A stretch of DNA of 64,000 nt from Nymphaea colorata (lineage: Eukaryota > Streptophyta > Magnoliopsida > Nymphaeales > Nymphaeaceae), in NCBI RefSeq assembly GCF_008831285.2, contig NC_045143.1:15846464-15910463 (forward strand). The letters are read 5' to 3'. Below, piece after piece: positions 3,001 through 16,413 of the stretch. The position numbers were made by a program, and so were the translations under genes. Each line of letters begins with the position of its first letter. Position 1 is the first letter of the stretch. The notes beneath the pieces were generated by a model, which saw nothing but the letters and a program-made list of their open reading frames with translations, was not told where the DNA came from and searched no databases.

Positions 3001-4001
3001 AGAGGTTTATTTTCGAGGGTGGTCCGATACCTCAAAAATAATGTGTTTTGCGCGTGCGCGAGCCATTTTCTTTTATGGCGTTGGTTGCATTGCTATCTCC
3101 ATGACCATTATCGACACAAGTTTGGTGATTCTGAATGAGTGTGCAATGCTGGAGAAATGCCGGCTTATTTTTAATAACACTGAAACCCGCATTTCTTTCT
3201 CCGGAACGGCTTATGTCTATACCACTGTGCACAATTTAAAGGTAATAACAAAAAATATTCCTATTTAAATATTTAAAAAACTTCTTAAAAACATAAGGAA
3301 AAGCTTACTAAACAGGTTACAAGTCTAAAATATATATATTCCTTTTAAAAAATCGAATAAATACCTCAAATTACACCGCCCGCCAATCTTCTTTTTTCCC
3401 TTTCAGGTTATATTTGTAGGCACGCAAGTCGATCACGCAACTCGGCCTCCTTATCCTTTCTTTGCTTTTTATGGAGGAAATAAAAGGATTGGCTACTCTA
3501 GAAACAAAAGGGCAGAAGAAAAGAAAAAAGAAAGAAAGAAAAAAAAAAAAAAGTAGTGACACCAAGCCTGTGCTTTGTGTATATATATGTTGCCCTACCC
3601 CAACCCTGAAGGCACCCAGTCTCCGAAACCGCCTTTCTCTATTCCTGCGTATCCCTTCTGTCGTCGTGCTCATTTACAAGCAAGGTTTCTGTTCTCTCCC
3701 TCGCTCTCTTTCTGCCATTGTTGATATGTGAATTTCTTTTCCTTCTTTAGCGGGATATATATTTTTCCTCTGGTAGGACATTTTCTGCCAAAATAGCTGT
3801 AGATAATCGGTCAAAACAATCTCGGCAATTCTGGGCATCCGCTCATATATATCTTGGCGTCTTTTTTTGTTCCTTTGTGCAGATCTTGATCTTGTATTCC
3901 ATCCCTGTTCCCGTCCGTGATTTTGCCGGTGGGTCTATTCCCCCCTTCTGCTTGCTAGGTGTGAGCCGGGGATCAGTTTCAGAGAAGACAAAAAGAAAGA
4001 G
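1..4001. other. Gene-free 5' flank upstream of PDX1
   Basis: No recognisable gene. The longest ATG frame on the plus strand (400-699, 99 residues) resembles no family I know and is probably chance. A- and T-rich runs are common, for example at 830-1140 and 3240-3360. The last 250 bases before the PDX1 ATG are pyrimidine-rich and contain TATA-like strings near 3750 and 3843-3852. One of these may serve the PDX1 promoter, but no single site can be chosen. Confidence 0.5.
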
Positions 4002-4931
4002 ATGGCCGATACTGGTGTGGTGACCGTTTACGGGAATGGTGCCATTACTGAGGCCAAGAAGTCCCCCTTCTCCGTGAAGGTGGGTCTGGCTCAGATGCTT
4101 CGTGGTGGTGTTATAATGGACGTTGTCAACGCGGAGCAGGCCAGGATTGCCGAAGAAGCCGGTGCCTGCGCGGTGATGGCCCTTGAACGTGTTCCCGCTG
4201 ACATCAGGGCACAGGGAGGTGTTGCTCGGATGAGCGATCCGGGCCTCATTAAGGAGATCAAGCAGGCCGTCACCATCCCTGTTATGGCCAAAGCAAGGAT
4301 AGGCCATTTCGTCGAGGCTCAGATCCTCGAAGCCATCGGCGTCGACTATGTTGATGAGAGCGAGGTTCTTACTGTAGCCGACGAGGAGCACCACATCAAC
4401 AAGCACAACTTCCGTGTCCCCTTTGTCTGTGGCTGCCGGAACCTGGGCGAGGCCCTCAGGCGGATAAGGGAGGGGGCGGCCATGATCAGGACTAAAGGAG
4501 AAGCTGGGACGGGGAATATTATAGAAGCCGTCAGGCACGTGAGGTCCGTCATGGGTGATATCAGGATCCTCCGCAACATGGACGATGACGAAGTTTTCTC
4601 TTTCGCGAAGAAGATATCCGCTCCTTATGACCTGGTGATGCAGACCAAGCAGCTTGGCAGGCTACCAGTGGTGCACTTCGCTGCCGGTGGCGTAGCCACG
4701 CCTGCAGACGCTGCCTTGATGATGCAGTTGGGCTGTGATGGCGTCTTTGTGGGCTCTGGCATCTTCAAGAGTGGTGATCCGTCTCGGCGTGCTCGCGCCA
4801 TAGTCCAGTCTGTAACCCATTACAGCGATCCTGATATCCTTGCAGAAGTGAGCTGCGGCTTAGGTGAAGCTATGGTTGGCCTTAACCTCAAGGATGATAA
4901 AGTTGAGAGGTATGCAAGCCGGTCAGAGTGA
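4002..4931 (+). CDS. PDX1: Pyridoxal 5'-phosphate synthase subunit PDX1
   Basis: Complete intronless frame of 309 residues, ATG at 4002 and TGA at 4929-4931. PDX1 is the synthase half of the ribose-5-phosphate-dependent vitamin B6 pathway: with ammonia from the PDX2 glutaminase it condenses ribose 5-phosphate and glyceraldehyde 3-phosphate into PLP, in the cytosol. The family is a (beta/alpha)8 barrel forming a dodecamer. Seen here: the near-invariant core [20 protein letters not shown] (about 35-54), the first catalytic lysine in [11 protein letters not shown] (Lys97), the second in [12 protein letters not shown] (Lys165), and the phosphate-binding [19 protein letters not shown] stretch followed by [14 protein letters not shown]. 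Length equals that of Arabidopsis PDX1.1 and PDX1.3. The absence of introns is usual for plant PDX1 genes, so this is not by itself a retrocopy. All key residues are present, so an active enzyme is expected, not the catalytically dead PDX1.2 type. Confidence 0.98.
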
Positions 4932-7918: not shown

Positions 7919-9154
7919 GACAAAGTTTACTGTTCATCTGCGGCTGGACAAGTGGTTAGGTAAAAAAAGTATCTTATGTTTTAGGTATTTAATTGCAATA
8001 AGATCAGTTTCTTTGTTATTTTGCTGCTCGAATTGTGACCACTGTTATTGTCTTTTCCTGCACTAGAAGGTGATCGTCTTTCACGCCATCCTCTGGCAAG
8101 GAGAGTATTAAAATTGTTTTACTTCCGAACCATGGTATGTTCAGTCCGATCTTTCTTCAAAAAATTATGGGTTGTATGGTGGAAGGGGATCGAACACGAC
8201 TATACCACCGAATATTGGAAATTATGTTCGTGTGATGAGAATGACATTTTATTCTCAAGGTGGTTCTTGTTTGCGACGGAGCATGGGAGCCTTAATTTTT
8301 CTAATTACTTCTGTACCAACTCAATTTGTTCATGTAATAATATACAACATAGTTAGCTGACTCGCTGAGTTGGCTCTAGAATCGCCGAGTCAACTCGAAT
8401 TGTTGGAAAACCTGGCGACGAATCAAATGTTGGTCCGGTTTGCCCTTGGCTCAACTGACTCGCCTGACTTGGTATCAGCCTGACTCCTCCATTCAAGTTA
8501 TTTTAAAACTCGATTGAGTCAACGAACCTGATGATCCGGCCATCTGCCGATCCGAGTTCGAATCACAGGTTTGCTGATATACAATATATATTTTTTCTCA
8601 GTAAGATCGGTGTAAAAAAAATGTTTTTAAAAGGAATGGCATGTCAATTTTAAAAACATTTCATTCTTTCCTTATTGTTAAACTTTTTTACAATGATATA
8701 GCTTACATATCGAAGCCTTGTCTTCCTAGTAACATATATGTGTTGGTATTTGATAACGCATATTGACTATGACGTCTTCAAATACGAAGTTCAGATCGTT
8801 GCATAAAGTTTTGACGATCTTATGAAGTTGTTTTGGTATGACTTGAACAGTACAAATGAAGTCAGAATGTCTTGAGTTAATGTGATTAATTCACAAATAC
8901 TTGCGAAATTCCAGCATATGTGGTTTGAATTTTTTAACGAGATGTCCTTGTTTTAGAATTATGTCTTTTTATATACAGTTAAAATTTTCGAAAATTTTCT
9001 TAGTTTTATGGTTTAGATGTATATGCTGGATGCATCTATACATTGGATCCATAGAAAATTAGTCTAGTATATGTAATTTCACATATTCACATATGACCAT
9101 AGTGTGAAATAGAGCTTTTCTAGTTGCTACTCTCTCTCTCTCCTTGCGGTTTGT

Positions 9155-9410
9155 TACTGTAACTAAAGGACTTCTTGTCCCCAATTTTTGTATGTAGGGG
9201 ACGTCTTGTCCTCCAATTTTAATATACATTCTCATTTTATCGGCTCTCTCTCTCTCTCTCTCTCTAGCAAAACTAGAAGATAGATAAAATGACACACACA
9301 CATACGTGTATATATATATATATATAGTCCTAAATGCAGACCCTACTCTTGAACATACCTTCTTGGACATTAAATTTGAGTCATCCATCTAAAATCAAAT
9401 GGCCCAAACC
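9155..9410 (+). mobile_element. Decayed LINE 3' tail, first copy
   Basis: The words GTATGTAGGGGACGTCTTGTCC (about 9190-9211), a CT-rich run and a terminal part around 9377-9410 (GAG.CATC.ATCT...AATGG...AAACC) parallel, in the same order, the 3' part of the better-preserved LINE fragment downstream: 9798-9820, the CT-rich part, and 10087-10120. I infer an older 3' UTR remnant of the same LINE family. No coding sequence is left. Confidence 0.4.
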
Positions 9411-9413
9411 ATT

Positions 9414-9533
9414 GGGTGCGATCATACCAGTACTAACGCACCGGATCCCATCAGAACTCCGAAGTTAAGCGTGCTTGGGCGAGAGTAGTACTGAGATGGG
9501 TGACCTCTTGGGAAGTCCTCATATTGTGTTCCC
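9414..9533 (+). rRNA. 5S rRNA copy (solitary, probably a retro-inserted pseudogene)
   Basis: 120 bases match plant 5S rRNA along the full length: the start GGGTGCGATCATACCAG, the middle CCGGATCCCATCAGAACTCC, the internal pol III promoter GAAGTTAAGCGTGCTTGGGC (box A/IE region) and GATGGGTGACCTCTTGGGAAG (box C region). It ends near GTGTTCCC and is followed by TTTT (9534-9537), which resembles the pol III terminator. A few substitutions are visible against the usual plant sequence, for example CTCATATTG instead of CTCGTGTTG. It is a single copy, not an array, and joins LINE coding sequence immediately downstream, which argues for a retrotransposed chimera rather than a working rDNA unit. Confidence 0.85.
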
Positions 9534-9537
9534 TTTT

Positions 9538-10145
9538 AAGATGGCTCATTTCAGCTTGGTGGCGCATTTGGGAAGAGCGCAACAACAGGGTATTCAGGGA
9601 CACCTTCTCTTCGTCAGATGGTGTGGCTAGTCTTGTGCAGGAGGATGTCCAGTTTGTCATTCGGTTAAGGCGCCGTGGTTCGTCTGCGGCTAGGTGACGG
9701 TACCGCTTCTTCCTTCCTCTCTATTCACACATTTCTTCTCACTGTGCATTGTATTGTATATTTCGCCTTTTTGCTTTTGTTTTTGCCGATTGCTTTTGTA
9801 TATAGGGGATGTCATGTCCCCAAAATTTATTATATTCCCCCCCCCCCCCCCCCCCCCCAATCCCTCTCCTCGTCACTCTTTCTCTCTGGCTCTCTCTCGA
9901 TGGCATTGGTCATGCCAAAGGATGTCTGCCGTGCCGTCCTGGCCCCACCGGTGACGGCAGGGCTGCTCCCTCCCTGCCGTCGCCACGGGATTGCTCCTTT
10001 TAGAACGTATGAGAGGGGAGAAAGTAGGAGGAGATGGGAAGAGAACAGAGAGAGACGGACAGAGAAAGGAAAAGGAAAATAGATCTGAGCCATCTGATTT
10101 AAGATCGGATGGTTTGGATTTGATGTCTACAAATGTCTAAAAAAA
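9538..10145 (+). mobile_element. LINE (non-LTR retrotransposon) 3' fragment fused to 5S
   Basis: The frame ending at the TGA at 9695-9697 reads ...SAWWRIWEERNNRVFRD..., the motif found in the C-terminal zf-RVT/RNase H-adjacent region of plant LINE ORF2 proteins. A 3' UTR follows with TATAGGGGATGTCATGTCCCC, a long C run and a CT-rich part. It ends near CTGAGCCATCTGATTTAAG...GGATGGTTTGG and a short A run at 10139-10145. Only the last 50 or so codons of ORF2 remain; the reverse transcriptase core is absent. A weak possible target duplication, ACCATT, stands just before the 5S start and again at about 10150-10155. Confidence 0.6.
9837..9858. repeat. Poly(C) run of 22
   Basis: Uninterrupted run of 22 C on the plus strand inside the LINE 3' UTR. 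Such a run is prone to replication slippage and sequencing error, so the exact length should be treated as uncertain. Confidence 0.9.
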
Positions 10146-11398
10146 CAGTTACCATTCAGTAAAACGAAAATTTGTATACAAGGACTGAAACTTAGGGAGA
10201 GAAGAGCCTGATCTCCCATTTTCCAAGCTTTACAAAATCTAGAGCACGTAGCGTGGGATCAGATGTCCCAAATAAGCTGTTGGCTTAGGATAGGGAAGCT
10301 AGAAAAGGAAACTCCACAGGAAAAACCTTGCCTCGATTTATATCGGTTAGAAAACAACTTTATATTTATCCATCCAGGCCAATGATACGGATTCTGAGGT
10401 GCTCCAAAGATTATGCGAAATTATATCCATCCTTCCAGGCCTTTGTATCCATCCTTCCCTCATAGTTATTTCATAATTTGAACGTGAAGTAAGCTTCTTT
10501 TTTATTGTTTTAACAAAACTAGCTAATAATATGTTCTATAGCTTGGTCAACAAACATTTGAAATGAGGACAACATTGATGTCATTCACACTCTACTTTTT
10601 AGTTAAAAGAGATAGACAACAGCACATCACCTCCATTATCTCCATCACTGTCCTCTCCTCCGAAACTATGCTTTTGAACTGCCAAAGTATAAACGCTGTG
10701 TGTGGATGACATTAAGTACTCATTATGTCCCTCTCAATTTGCATATTTCCCCTTCCTTAGTTTACAATCCATTCTAAGCCATAAACACGAAGAAAAGTTG
10801 AAGTGTGTTTCGAACTTCCAGCTCTATGATGGCAGTTTTCATCTTCCAGCCATTATAAATATGCTTGAATCAGATTTTTCTATGATCATCACCCCTCTAA
10901 CTCTCTCCCTTCATCCCTCTCGTTTTGTATCTCTCTCTCTCTTTCTCTCTTGCTTCAGAAATTTTTCTCATCATCAATTAACTTTTCAATGGTAATCTTT
11001 GTTTAGACATATGTACATTTTGTACATAAAATCACAAGTGATATTTATCTGCTTTGGCCATAGAGATGTGAGGTCTCGATATAGCAGTGAAAAAAATCGC
11101 CGGTATAAATCGGACATAATCGTCCCACCGCCATCTTTCGCGGCTATAGTCAGAAAAATTTCCCAACGGTTCACAAATTCCCAACACCCAAGGTTGGGAA
11201 TCATTTTGCCAACGAAATTTTTACCAATATCTCTAGAGCCATCAGCATCGGAAATGCCAACAACCTTAGGGCGTCTTTGCCAATAGTTTAGGCCGTCGGC
11301 AATGTCAGTGACTTACACTAACATTTTTTTTTAAAGGTGTATTTTACGAAGACTTTTAGCAATACAAAATAAAATAAAATAAAAAAACCTTTCAACCA

Positions 11399-14459: not shown

Positions 14460-16413
14460 TGCTTATCTTGCACACGCACGAAACAACCCCAGTTAGTTTC
14501 TTCGTTTACCCTTCCTACTTGAAGTCCTCCGTAAGAAGATCGATGAAGTAATCGTAATACACGCTGCCCTTGAAGCTGCGTAAGGCTTCAACTGTTGATA
14601 TTGACCACCCGATCGAGTTAAACTTAGTTTGAAGAGAAAGACTGATTGTCTGCTTTTTTTCTGCTGTTGTATATAAAACTTCGAACGTCAGGTATGGATC
14701 TTCGCGCTGAGCCTACTGGGTCTCACGCAACTCGCGGAACGTGTAAGCTTCCTGACAGAGTGAGTATTGGAGCTTTTCTCCCTTTCTTTCCATCTCACTC
14801 CCTCTCTTTTCTTATGCTCGTCTCTCCACATTATTACAGGCAGATTGCACTTTACACTGGACCAACAGGTATAGCATTCCCTTAACTATGAGACTGATGC
14901 GAGATAATCCCCCAACGAGGAAAGCTGTTGTTATCTTTTGTGAGACCTGTATATGATATGATACCGTCCTTTCAGCTCTTCTCAGGACACTTCTATAACC
15001 AGTCCTGCTCTGTAACTAACGACTGTCCGTTTCTTACCCACGACGCGAAACGACAAAACATCATTCTGTCTGACTCCGCCCGAATAATTAATGTTACTCT
15101 TCAGTCTTGCTTTGCTACGGAATGACATTTTAATCCGGTTGCCCACGGCTTCACAATTGATCTTCCTCCCTCTGTCCCTCAACATTCAACCACACACACG
15201 CACCCCTTCGGCCCCGGTCAACGAGCGCCAACTTTTTGAACACAAAAACGGACTTCTTGGATGAGTAGACATCAATCAAACTCTAAGGTTTTCTATTTTG
15301 TCCTTGAAAAATAAGATAGAGTACTCCGTTCCATCGCTTTGTATGAATTAGGAGTCGGGCTTGATGATTATGCATGATGCTAAGCTTTAATTTGGCTTTG
15401 AGAATGTGACTGCAGTTGGGGGTCTCCTGAATGCGACGTGCGGAAATGCCACCGAGCTGATAATAGCGATATTGGCTCTAGCCAAGGGCAAAATGGAGGT
15501 TGTCAAGTGCTCCTTGCTGGGCTCTGTTCTTTCCAATATGCTGCTGGTGCTGGGGACTTCCCTCTTCTTGGGAGGACTCAAGAATATGGGAAAGGAGCAG
15601 AAGTTCGACCAAGTGAGGAGCCGGACTACCACCGCCTCATATATGCTATGCTTCAATTTTCCTTTTTGTCTTTTCAATTCAACCTCATGCATCTCGGCAC
15701 ACGTATACACCATGCGGAATTAGTATATATTATAGGCATACTTTACTTGACTGATTGCGGCTTTCTTTCATTCGTTTTAATTTGTCACATATATATTATA
15801 GGCATACTTTACTTGACTGATTGCGGCTTTCTTTCATTCGTTTTAATTTGTCACATGTGACAGACGCAATCCGGAGCCACTTGCAGTCTTCTCCTGATGT
15901 CCTCGCTCTGCCAACTGCTGCCTTTGATTTTCAGCTATTTTGAGAGCACCGGTTCTGTGCCCCAAGGTTCCCCTTTGCACTTGTCCAGAGCGGGCAGCAT
16001 CCTCATGCTCATCGCTTATGCCGCATACCTTTTCTTTCAACTCAGAACACATCGCCAACTGTTCGAGGCCACAGAGATGGTAAGATGGGCAAGTTAATTC
16101 AACTGCATCCAAATTATAATTTCTTTAACCTCATCAGCGGCATCCGCTGATGACATGGGCCCCGGAGCTCATTCGTCCTCATTATGAGCCGGCCCGCGCG
16201 GCACTTACTCTCTGCCCCCTACTTTTTCTCCCACCTTACAATCATCTACAAAACGAAAAACGGGGAAAAAAGTGTAAAGTTAACCAGTAATTAAATAATA
16301 GCCTTATGTACATTGTAGAACGAGCTATGTTACTTGATCTGCTTAATTATCACCTTATGAAGAATTGGTGTTACTAGAACTGATCCTTCTCATGATCAGC
16401 TCTGCAGCAGTCA

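Follow-up and report, generated by a model that had tools for sequence, protein, structure and literature searches.

Features of the locus

The window, by which we mean the whole 64-kb stretch of Nymphaea colorata DNA that was analysed, looks like plant nuclear DNA from its Pfam-matched frames and its repeats. Pfam searches with five open reading frames returned SOR/SNZ (3921-4928), a mitochondrial carrier, a cis-prenyltransferase and a piece of a P450, and the fifth frame gave no match. The SOR/SNZ (PDX1-like) frame at 3921-4928 is open and apparently intronless over 336 amino acids. Elsewhere, 15724-15856 holds a 66-bp unit twice in tandem, the copies being identical (100% matches); the probable cause is a duplication of very recent date or an artefact of assembly. 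The locus considered here comprises a complete 5S sequence, a TTTT joint, a LINE-like 3' end that is repeated in the window and an enclosing inverted repeat, arranged as follows:

9166..9226, + strand: upstream relic of a LINE-like 3' end with two hairpin words (9166 and 9197), from sequence match
9357..9413, unstranded: left arm of the enclosing inverted repeat, directly before the 5S sequence
9414..9533, + strand: complete 5S rRNA-like sequence that heads the chimera
9534..9537, + strand: TTTT at the joint, a putative pol III terminator or copy of a 3' U tail
9538..9697, + strand: frame resembling the C-terminal end of a LINE ORF2, 52 codons from 9539 and a TAG
9698..9836, + strand: LINE-like 3' UTR with a hairpin word at 9805-9821
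9837..9858, + strand: C22 homopolymer just behind the LINE-like end (second-longest C or G run of the window, 7)
9859..10077, unstranded: probable interior of an inverted-repeat host, with a hairpin at 9950-9984, judged from the fold and the empty-site joins
10078..10136, unstranded: right arm of the enclosing inverted repeat
10139..10145, + strand: A7 run, the LINE tail of the original prediction, more probably outside the chimera

The 5S head

The sole Rfam match at the gathering threshold in the whole 64 kb was to RF00001, on the + strand at 9414-9532 (99.4 bits, E 1.7e-20), and it covered model positions 1-120 of 120, upholding the original prediction of a full-length 5S sequence at 9414. 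With E values up to 1 the only extra match in the window was a sub-threshold one to a bacterial sRNA, which we regard as chance, and a tRNA scan gave none. Against a rice-like 5S reference there were 10 differences in 120 positions (3, 18, 24, 80, 81, 95, 108, 110, 114 and 115), nine of them transitions and one a transversion, with none in nucleotides 25-79. If the promoter boxes lie where we take them to be, boxes A and IE are unchanged and positions 80, 81 and 95 fall in or next to box C. With the boxes so placed, the claim of intact internal promoter words stands for boxes A and IE but not for box C. As RNA, the 5S sequence folded no better than its shuffles (z 0.82), and we therefore do not claim a retained 5S structure. 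The copy looks like a decaying pseudogene, presumably without function.

The joint and the LINE-like tail

The 5S end runs through C at 9533 into TTTT at 9534-9537 and from there directly into the LINE-like tail; the predicted CCC-TTTT joint is thus real, with an open frame behind it. This frame is free of stops from 9539 to 9694 and closes with TAG at 9695-9697. Its translation starts RWLISAWWRIWEERNNRVFRD..., and the stretch WRIWEERNNRVF, with the pattern W..IW.ERNNR.F, resembles the end of a plant L1-clade ORF2. Pfam gave nothing above its cut-off for the tail (DUF3475 only, below cut-off), a literature search on ERNNR-type motifs returned no papers, and the peptide had no second copy in the window (other matches at E 1.1 or worse). 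In the viral_contigs collection, which is not of plants, 86 stretches fitted the pattern and none was confirmed as a relative.

The hairpin word GGGGATGTCATGTCCCC stands at 9805 in the LINE-like 3' UTR, and 9794-9834 matches 9186-9226, in the relic some 0.6 kb upstream, with 83% identity over 41 bp (E about 1e-6). With up to three mismatches allowed, the window has the word three times on the + strand (9166, 9197 and 9805) and one time on the - strand (4050). Since both the word and the 41-bp match recur, the window has more than one LINE-like 3' end. The two words of the relic at 9166-9226 lie 31 bases apart, as though the LINE terminus had been tandemly duplicated. The fold of 9780-9836 shows a hairpin, yet is no better than its shuffles (z -0.76); the upstream relic folds better than shuffles (z -2.6).

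Judged partly on the motif and partly on the shared 3' end, the tail is probably LINE-derived and of the L1 clade, and this half of the chimera is more weakly assigned than the 5S half. At the locus, a cellular RNA copy identified by Rfam abuts, on its 5' side, a fragment that the shared 3' end and the ORF2-like motif mark as the probable 3' part of a LINE.

Extent of the unit and the enclosing inverted repeat

The original prediction carried the LINE 3' UTR and its A run as far as 10155. A LINE-like 3' UTR does reach about 9836, but beyond it come the C22 run and then an inverted-repeat arm. The C22 homopolymer is placed exactly behind the LINE-like end at 9834-9836 and is the sole C or G run longer than 7 in the window. 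Sequence 9357-9413 matched the reverse complement of 10078-10136 imperfectly with a score of 44, the maximum of 300 dinucleotide shuffles being 30. The arm 9360-9413 alone scored 42, as high as none of 498 window slices; in direct orientation the arm motif scored 31, just over the shuffle maximum and again reached by none of the 498. Because the LINE likeness stops at about 9834-9836 and the two arms pair, an end at 10155 is doubtful, and the chimeric unit probably ends near 9836-9866, with a size of about 0.42-0.45 kb. No poly(A) tail was seen at 9836-9866, the A7 run standing only at 10139.

Since the inverted repeat encloses the chimera, 9859-10136 is probably part of an older foldback or MITE-like host element. 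The imperfect 57-bp inverted repeat and its interior may themselves make up such an element of ~0.35 kb. With the boundary originally predicted, the arms would be split between the target and the inserted LINE, so that a nested insertion is the simpler view. Nesting predicts a longer inverted repeat once the insertion is removed, and 9413 was joined to each candidate post-insertion base. The best of 243 join points (9500-9984) was 9866, with a score of 69 as against 44 unjoined, and the best join outside the 9866 plateau scored 60, at 9710; a score of 69 was equalled or passed by 27 of 7,795 arbitrary window slices. The joined empty site folded with z -3.0 (join 9859) or z -3.4 (join 9866; 200 shuffles each) and the interior of the element alone with z -2.6, compared with z -0.13 for the present 791-base stretch (20 shuffles). 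However, the match added by joining is pyrimidine-rich, and 98 of 300 shuffles reached that match alone; by joining energy, too, 9866 (-4.1) did not stand out from the 66 joins, of which 9538 was the best (-7.8). The chimera is likely nested in the inverted-repeat element, beside its left arm. No other copy of this host was found in the window at E <0.1. As to the marks of a TIR- or MITE-type element, the inverted repeat is present and the exact candidate duplications outside the arms are only TAAA or AACA (four letters).

No candidate target-site duplication is convincing. ACCATT immediately precedes the 5S sequence and recurs at 10151-10156 (six letters, P 0.012; 8-12 letters, P 0.14-0.47), with CAGTT separating the second copy from the A7 run at 10139-10145. 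For a nested insertion the candidate pair CCCAAACCATT / CCCAATCCCTC agrees at 8 of 11 letters (P 0.046, the lowest value among 8 lengths, with 0.09-0.63 for the rest). Behind the LINE the 5S end recurs no more than chance would allow: CCTTTT stands at 9996 (P 0.12), and longer words gave P 0.63-0.77. Weak insertion marks are compatible with a LINE event, since a dicot survey had just a single retrocopy with a perfect fit to the standard L1 marks (PMC4838847).

Copies, transcription and other 5S-bearing structures

No second copy of the chimera was found in the 64 kb by Rfam, sequence match or peptide. The 5S core pattern had no match in the genome_contigs and viral_contigs collections, and the 5S sequence none among plasmids and phages; these collections are not of plants, and the misses therefore say little. 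Two structures that would have spoken against a chimera, namely a 5S inside an LTR and a 5S array, were sought in the window and were absent. A Cassandra TRIM was rejected within the window, where there is one 5S and where 9000-10300 holds no LTR-like direct-repeat pair (CT-rich words only). A solo LTR, against which the absent repeats speak less strictly, fits poorly with a complete 5S that has a terminator and a LINE-like frame behind it. A tandem 5S rDNA array was likewise rejected, with one 5S in 64 kb and none of 33 tandem-repeat rows covering it.

The unit had also been credited with the architecture of a SINE founder. Its sequence does not form a pol III unit that spans head and tail free of terminators: TTTT at 9534-9537 parts the promoter from the LINE tail, and T5 runs follow at 9768 and 9780. 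Pol III should halt at TTTT and at the later T runs and give a transcript without the LINE tail, which weakens the idea; with a single copy in 64 kb besides, we found it unsupported.

Proposed origin of the chimera

The reading we lean towards, with modest confidence, is a single 5S-LINE chimeric retrocopy running from 9414 to about 9836-9866, made by a LINE beside an arm of an older inverted repeat and since decayed. A plant LINE, probably of the L1 clade, would have begun to reverse-transcribe its own RNA from a primer at the target and, some 300 nt into the LINE 3' end, switched template to a 5S transcript with a 3' U tail; alternatively, the 5S and LINE RNAs may have been ligated beforehand. 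Either a switch onto the U tail or a ligation would yield CCC-TTTT and then LINE. The cDNA would have gone in beside the left arm of a short foldback/MITE-like inverted-repeat element already in place, and the inserted chimera would then have decayed as a pseudogene. A retro-chimera is favoured because the 5S is complete at both ends, in sense and 5' of the LINE, with TTTT at the joint. As an account of the joint, the retro-chimera of the original prediction is the best explanation, while its outer boundary is probably wrong.

A 5S filling model positions 1-120 and then TTTT is what a copied 5S transcript should leave, and the ORF2-like frame of the tail, with a 3' end that recurs in the window, fits a probable LINE partner. 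Nesting draws on the inverted repeat (44 against a shuffle maximum of 30), its rise to 69 at join 9866 and the better fold of the empty site (z -3.0/-3.4 against z -0.13); it is weakened by the pyrimidine-rich gain (98 of 300 shuffles), by an energy that does not favour 9866 among the 66 joins and by the direct match of the arm motif (31 against 30). The duplication of 8 in 11 letters is unconvincing, and poly(A), which ends almost all flowering-plant L1-clade LINEs (PMC3747384), is absent at the proposed end. Alternatively, one retrocopy might extend to 10138-10150 with a long LINE 3' UTR, the inverted repeat then being chance or a quasi-palindromic motif common to two LINE 3' ends, those of the upstream relic and of the chimera. 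The A7 at 10139-10145 would be its end and ACCATT its duplication, and the direct arm match, above all shuffles and all 498 slices, would suit a shared motif. We nevertheless think this unlikely, with CAGTT lying between A7 and ACCATT, longer duplications at P 0.14-0.47 and the inverted match surpassing the direct one in both length and score (44).

Two insertions could also be envisaged, a 5S retropseudogene either taking up a 5'-truncated LINE immediately at its back or itself landing in front of an existing one; TTTT is a plausible neighbour of a LINE target, and none of the duplications is proof of one event. A LINE behind a genomic 5S should, however, repeat the 5S end, which was not seen beyond chance (P 0.12; longer words P 0.63-0.77), and a junction exactly at the 5S end would require coincidence, so that two independent events appear quite improbable. 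Capture of 5S and LINE pieces as DNA by an inverted-repeat transposon of the Pack-TIR type would account for the repeat around the chimera, but random capture does not predict a 5S bounded exactly by model position 1 and a terminator, and the exact duplications outside the arms have only four letters; it is decidedly improbable. Membership of a multi-copy SINE family with a 5S head and a LINE-derived tail is, in our view, very improbable. Nucleotides 25-79 are unchanged against the rice-like reference and the tail is LINE-like, as such a family would have it, and 5S SINEs are known in animals (PMC10886601) and reported in a fungus (PMC5063351); against it, pol III should be stopped by the TTTT that parts head from tail and by T5 at 9768 and 9780, the window lacks a second copy and ORF2-like coding sequence is kept, as in a truncated LINE. 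That the locus should be an early copy of a plant 5S-headed SINE lineage, born when an L1-clade element switched templates onto a 5S transcript, would likewise be very improbable. Most likely it is a decayed one-off chimera rather than a working new mobile element.

Comparison with known systems

A search of open-licence papers, mostly at the level of their listings, found no plant 5S-LINE chimera. If confirmed, the locus would be a plant case of a pol III transcript fused by a LINE, the 5S being sense and full-length. It would thereby show the kind of raw event that could give rise to 5S-headed SINEs and, on a speculation quoted in PMC10886601, to the Cassandra promoter as well. As a single decayed copy, it would be a fossil of the mechanism and not an element.

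Of LINE-1 chimeras whose RNA type is known, PMC13174262 (2026) compiles 253, 70.9% of them with U6 and 10.5% with 5S; U6, 5S and other RNAs are joined at the LINE 5' side, with template switching, RNA ligation and twin priming as the suggested routes. As here, a small pol III RNA stands 5' of a LINE 3' fragment (PMC13174262, PMC4476161), and most U6 pieces are full-length and in sense, as is the present 5S with its U-tail signature at the joint; the U6 transcript also ends in U from a pol III terminator (PMC4476161). The 5S pieces of the LINE-1 chimeras are typically antisense and truncated (PMC13174262), whereas the plant 5S is sense and full-length; many (20/27) have duplications of 7-17 bp, whereas here none is convincing and the proposed end has no poly(A).

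Cassandra TRIMs are also plant elements with a 5S promoter sequence, but there the 5S-like part lies mid-LTR (PMC10853983), whereas the chimera has one complete 5S, a terminator and LINE-like coding sequence, with no LTR pair found. The animal SINE3-type 5S SINEs, as outlined in PMC10886601, share with the chimera a 5S promoter head and a LINE-like tail; in the chimera a terminator stands between the two, and the 64 kb holds no second copy. WEIRD-MGL of Magnaporthe differs in its RNA, its fungal host and its many copies, yet it too fuses a non-coding RNA copy to the 3' part of a LINE, and PMC2104539 credits these fungal chimeras to template switching.
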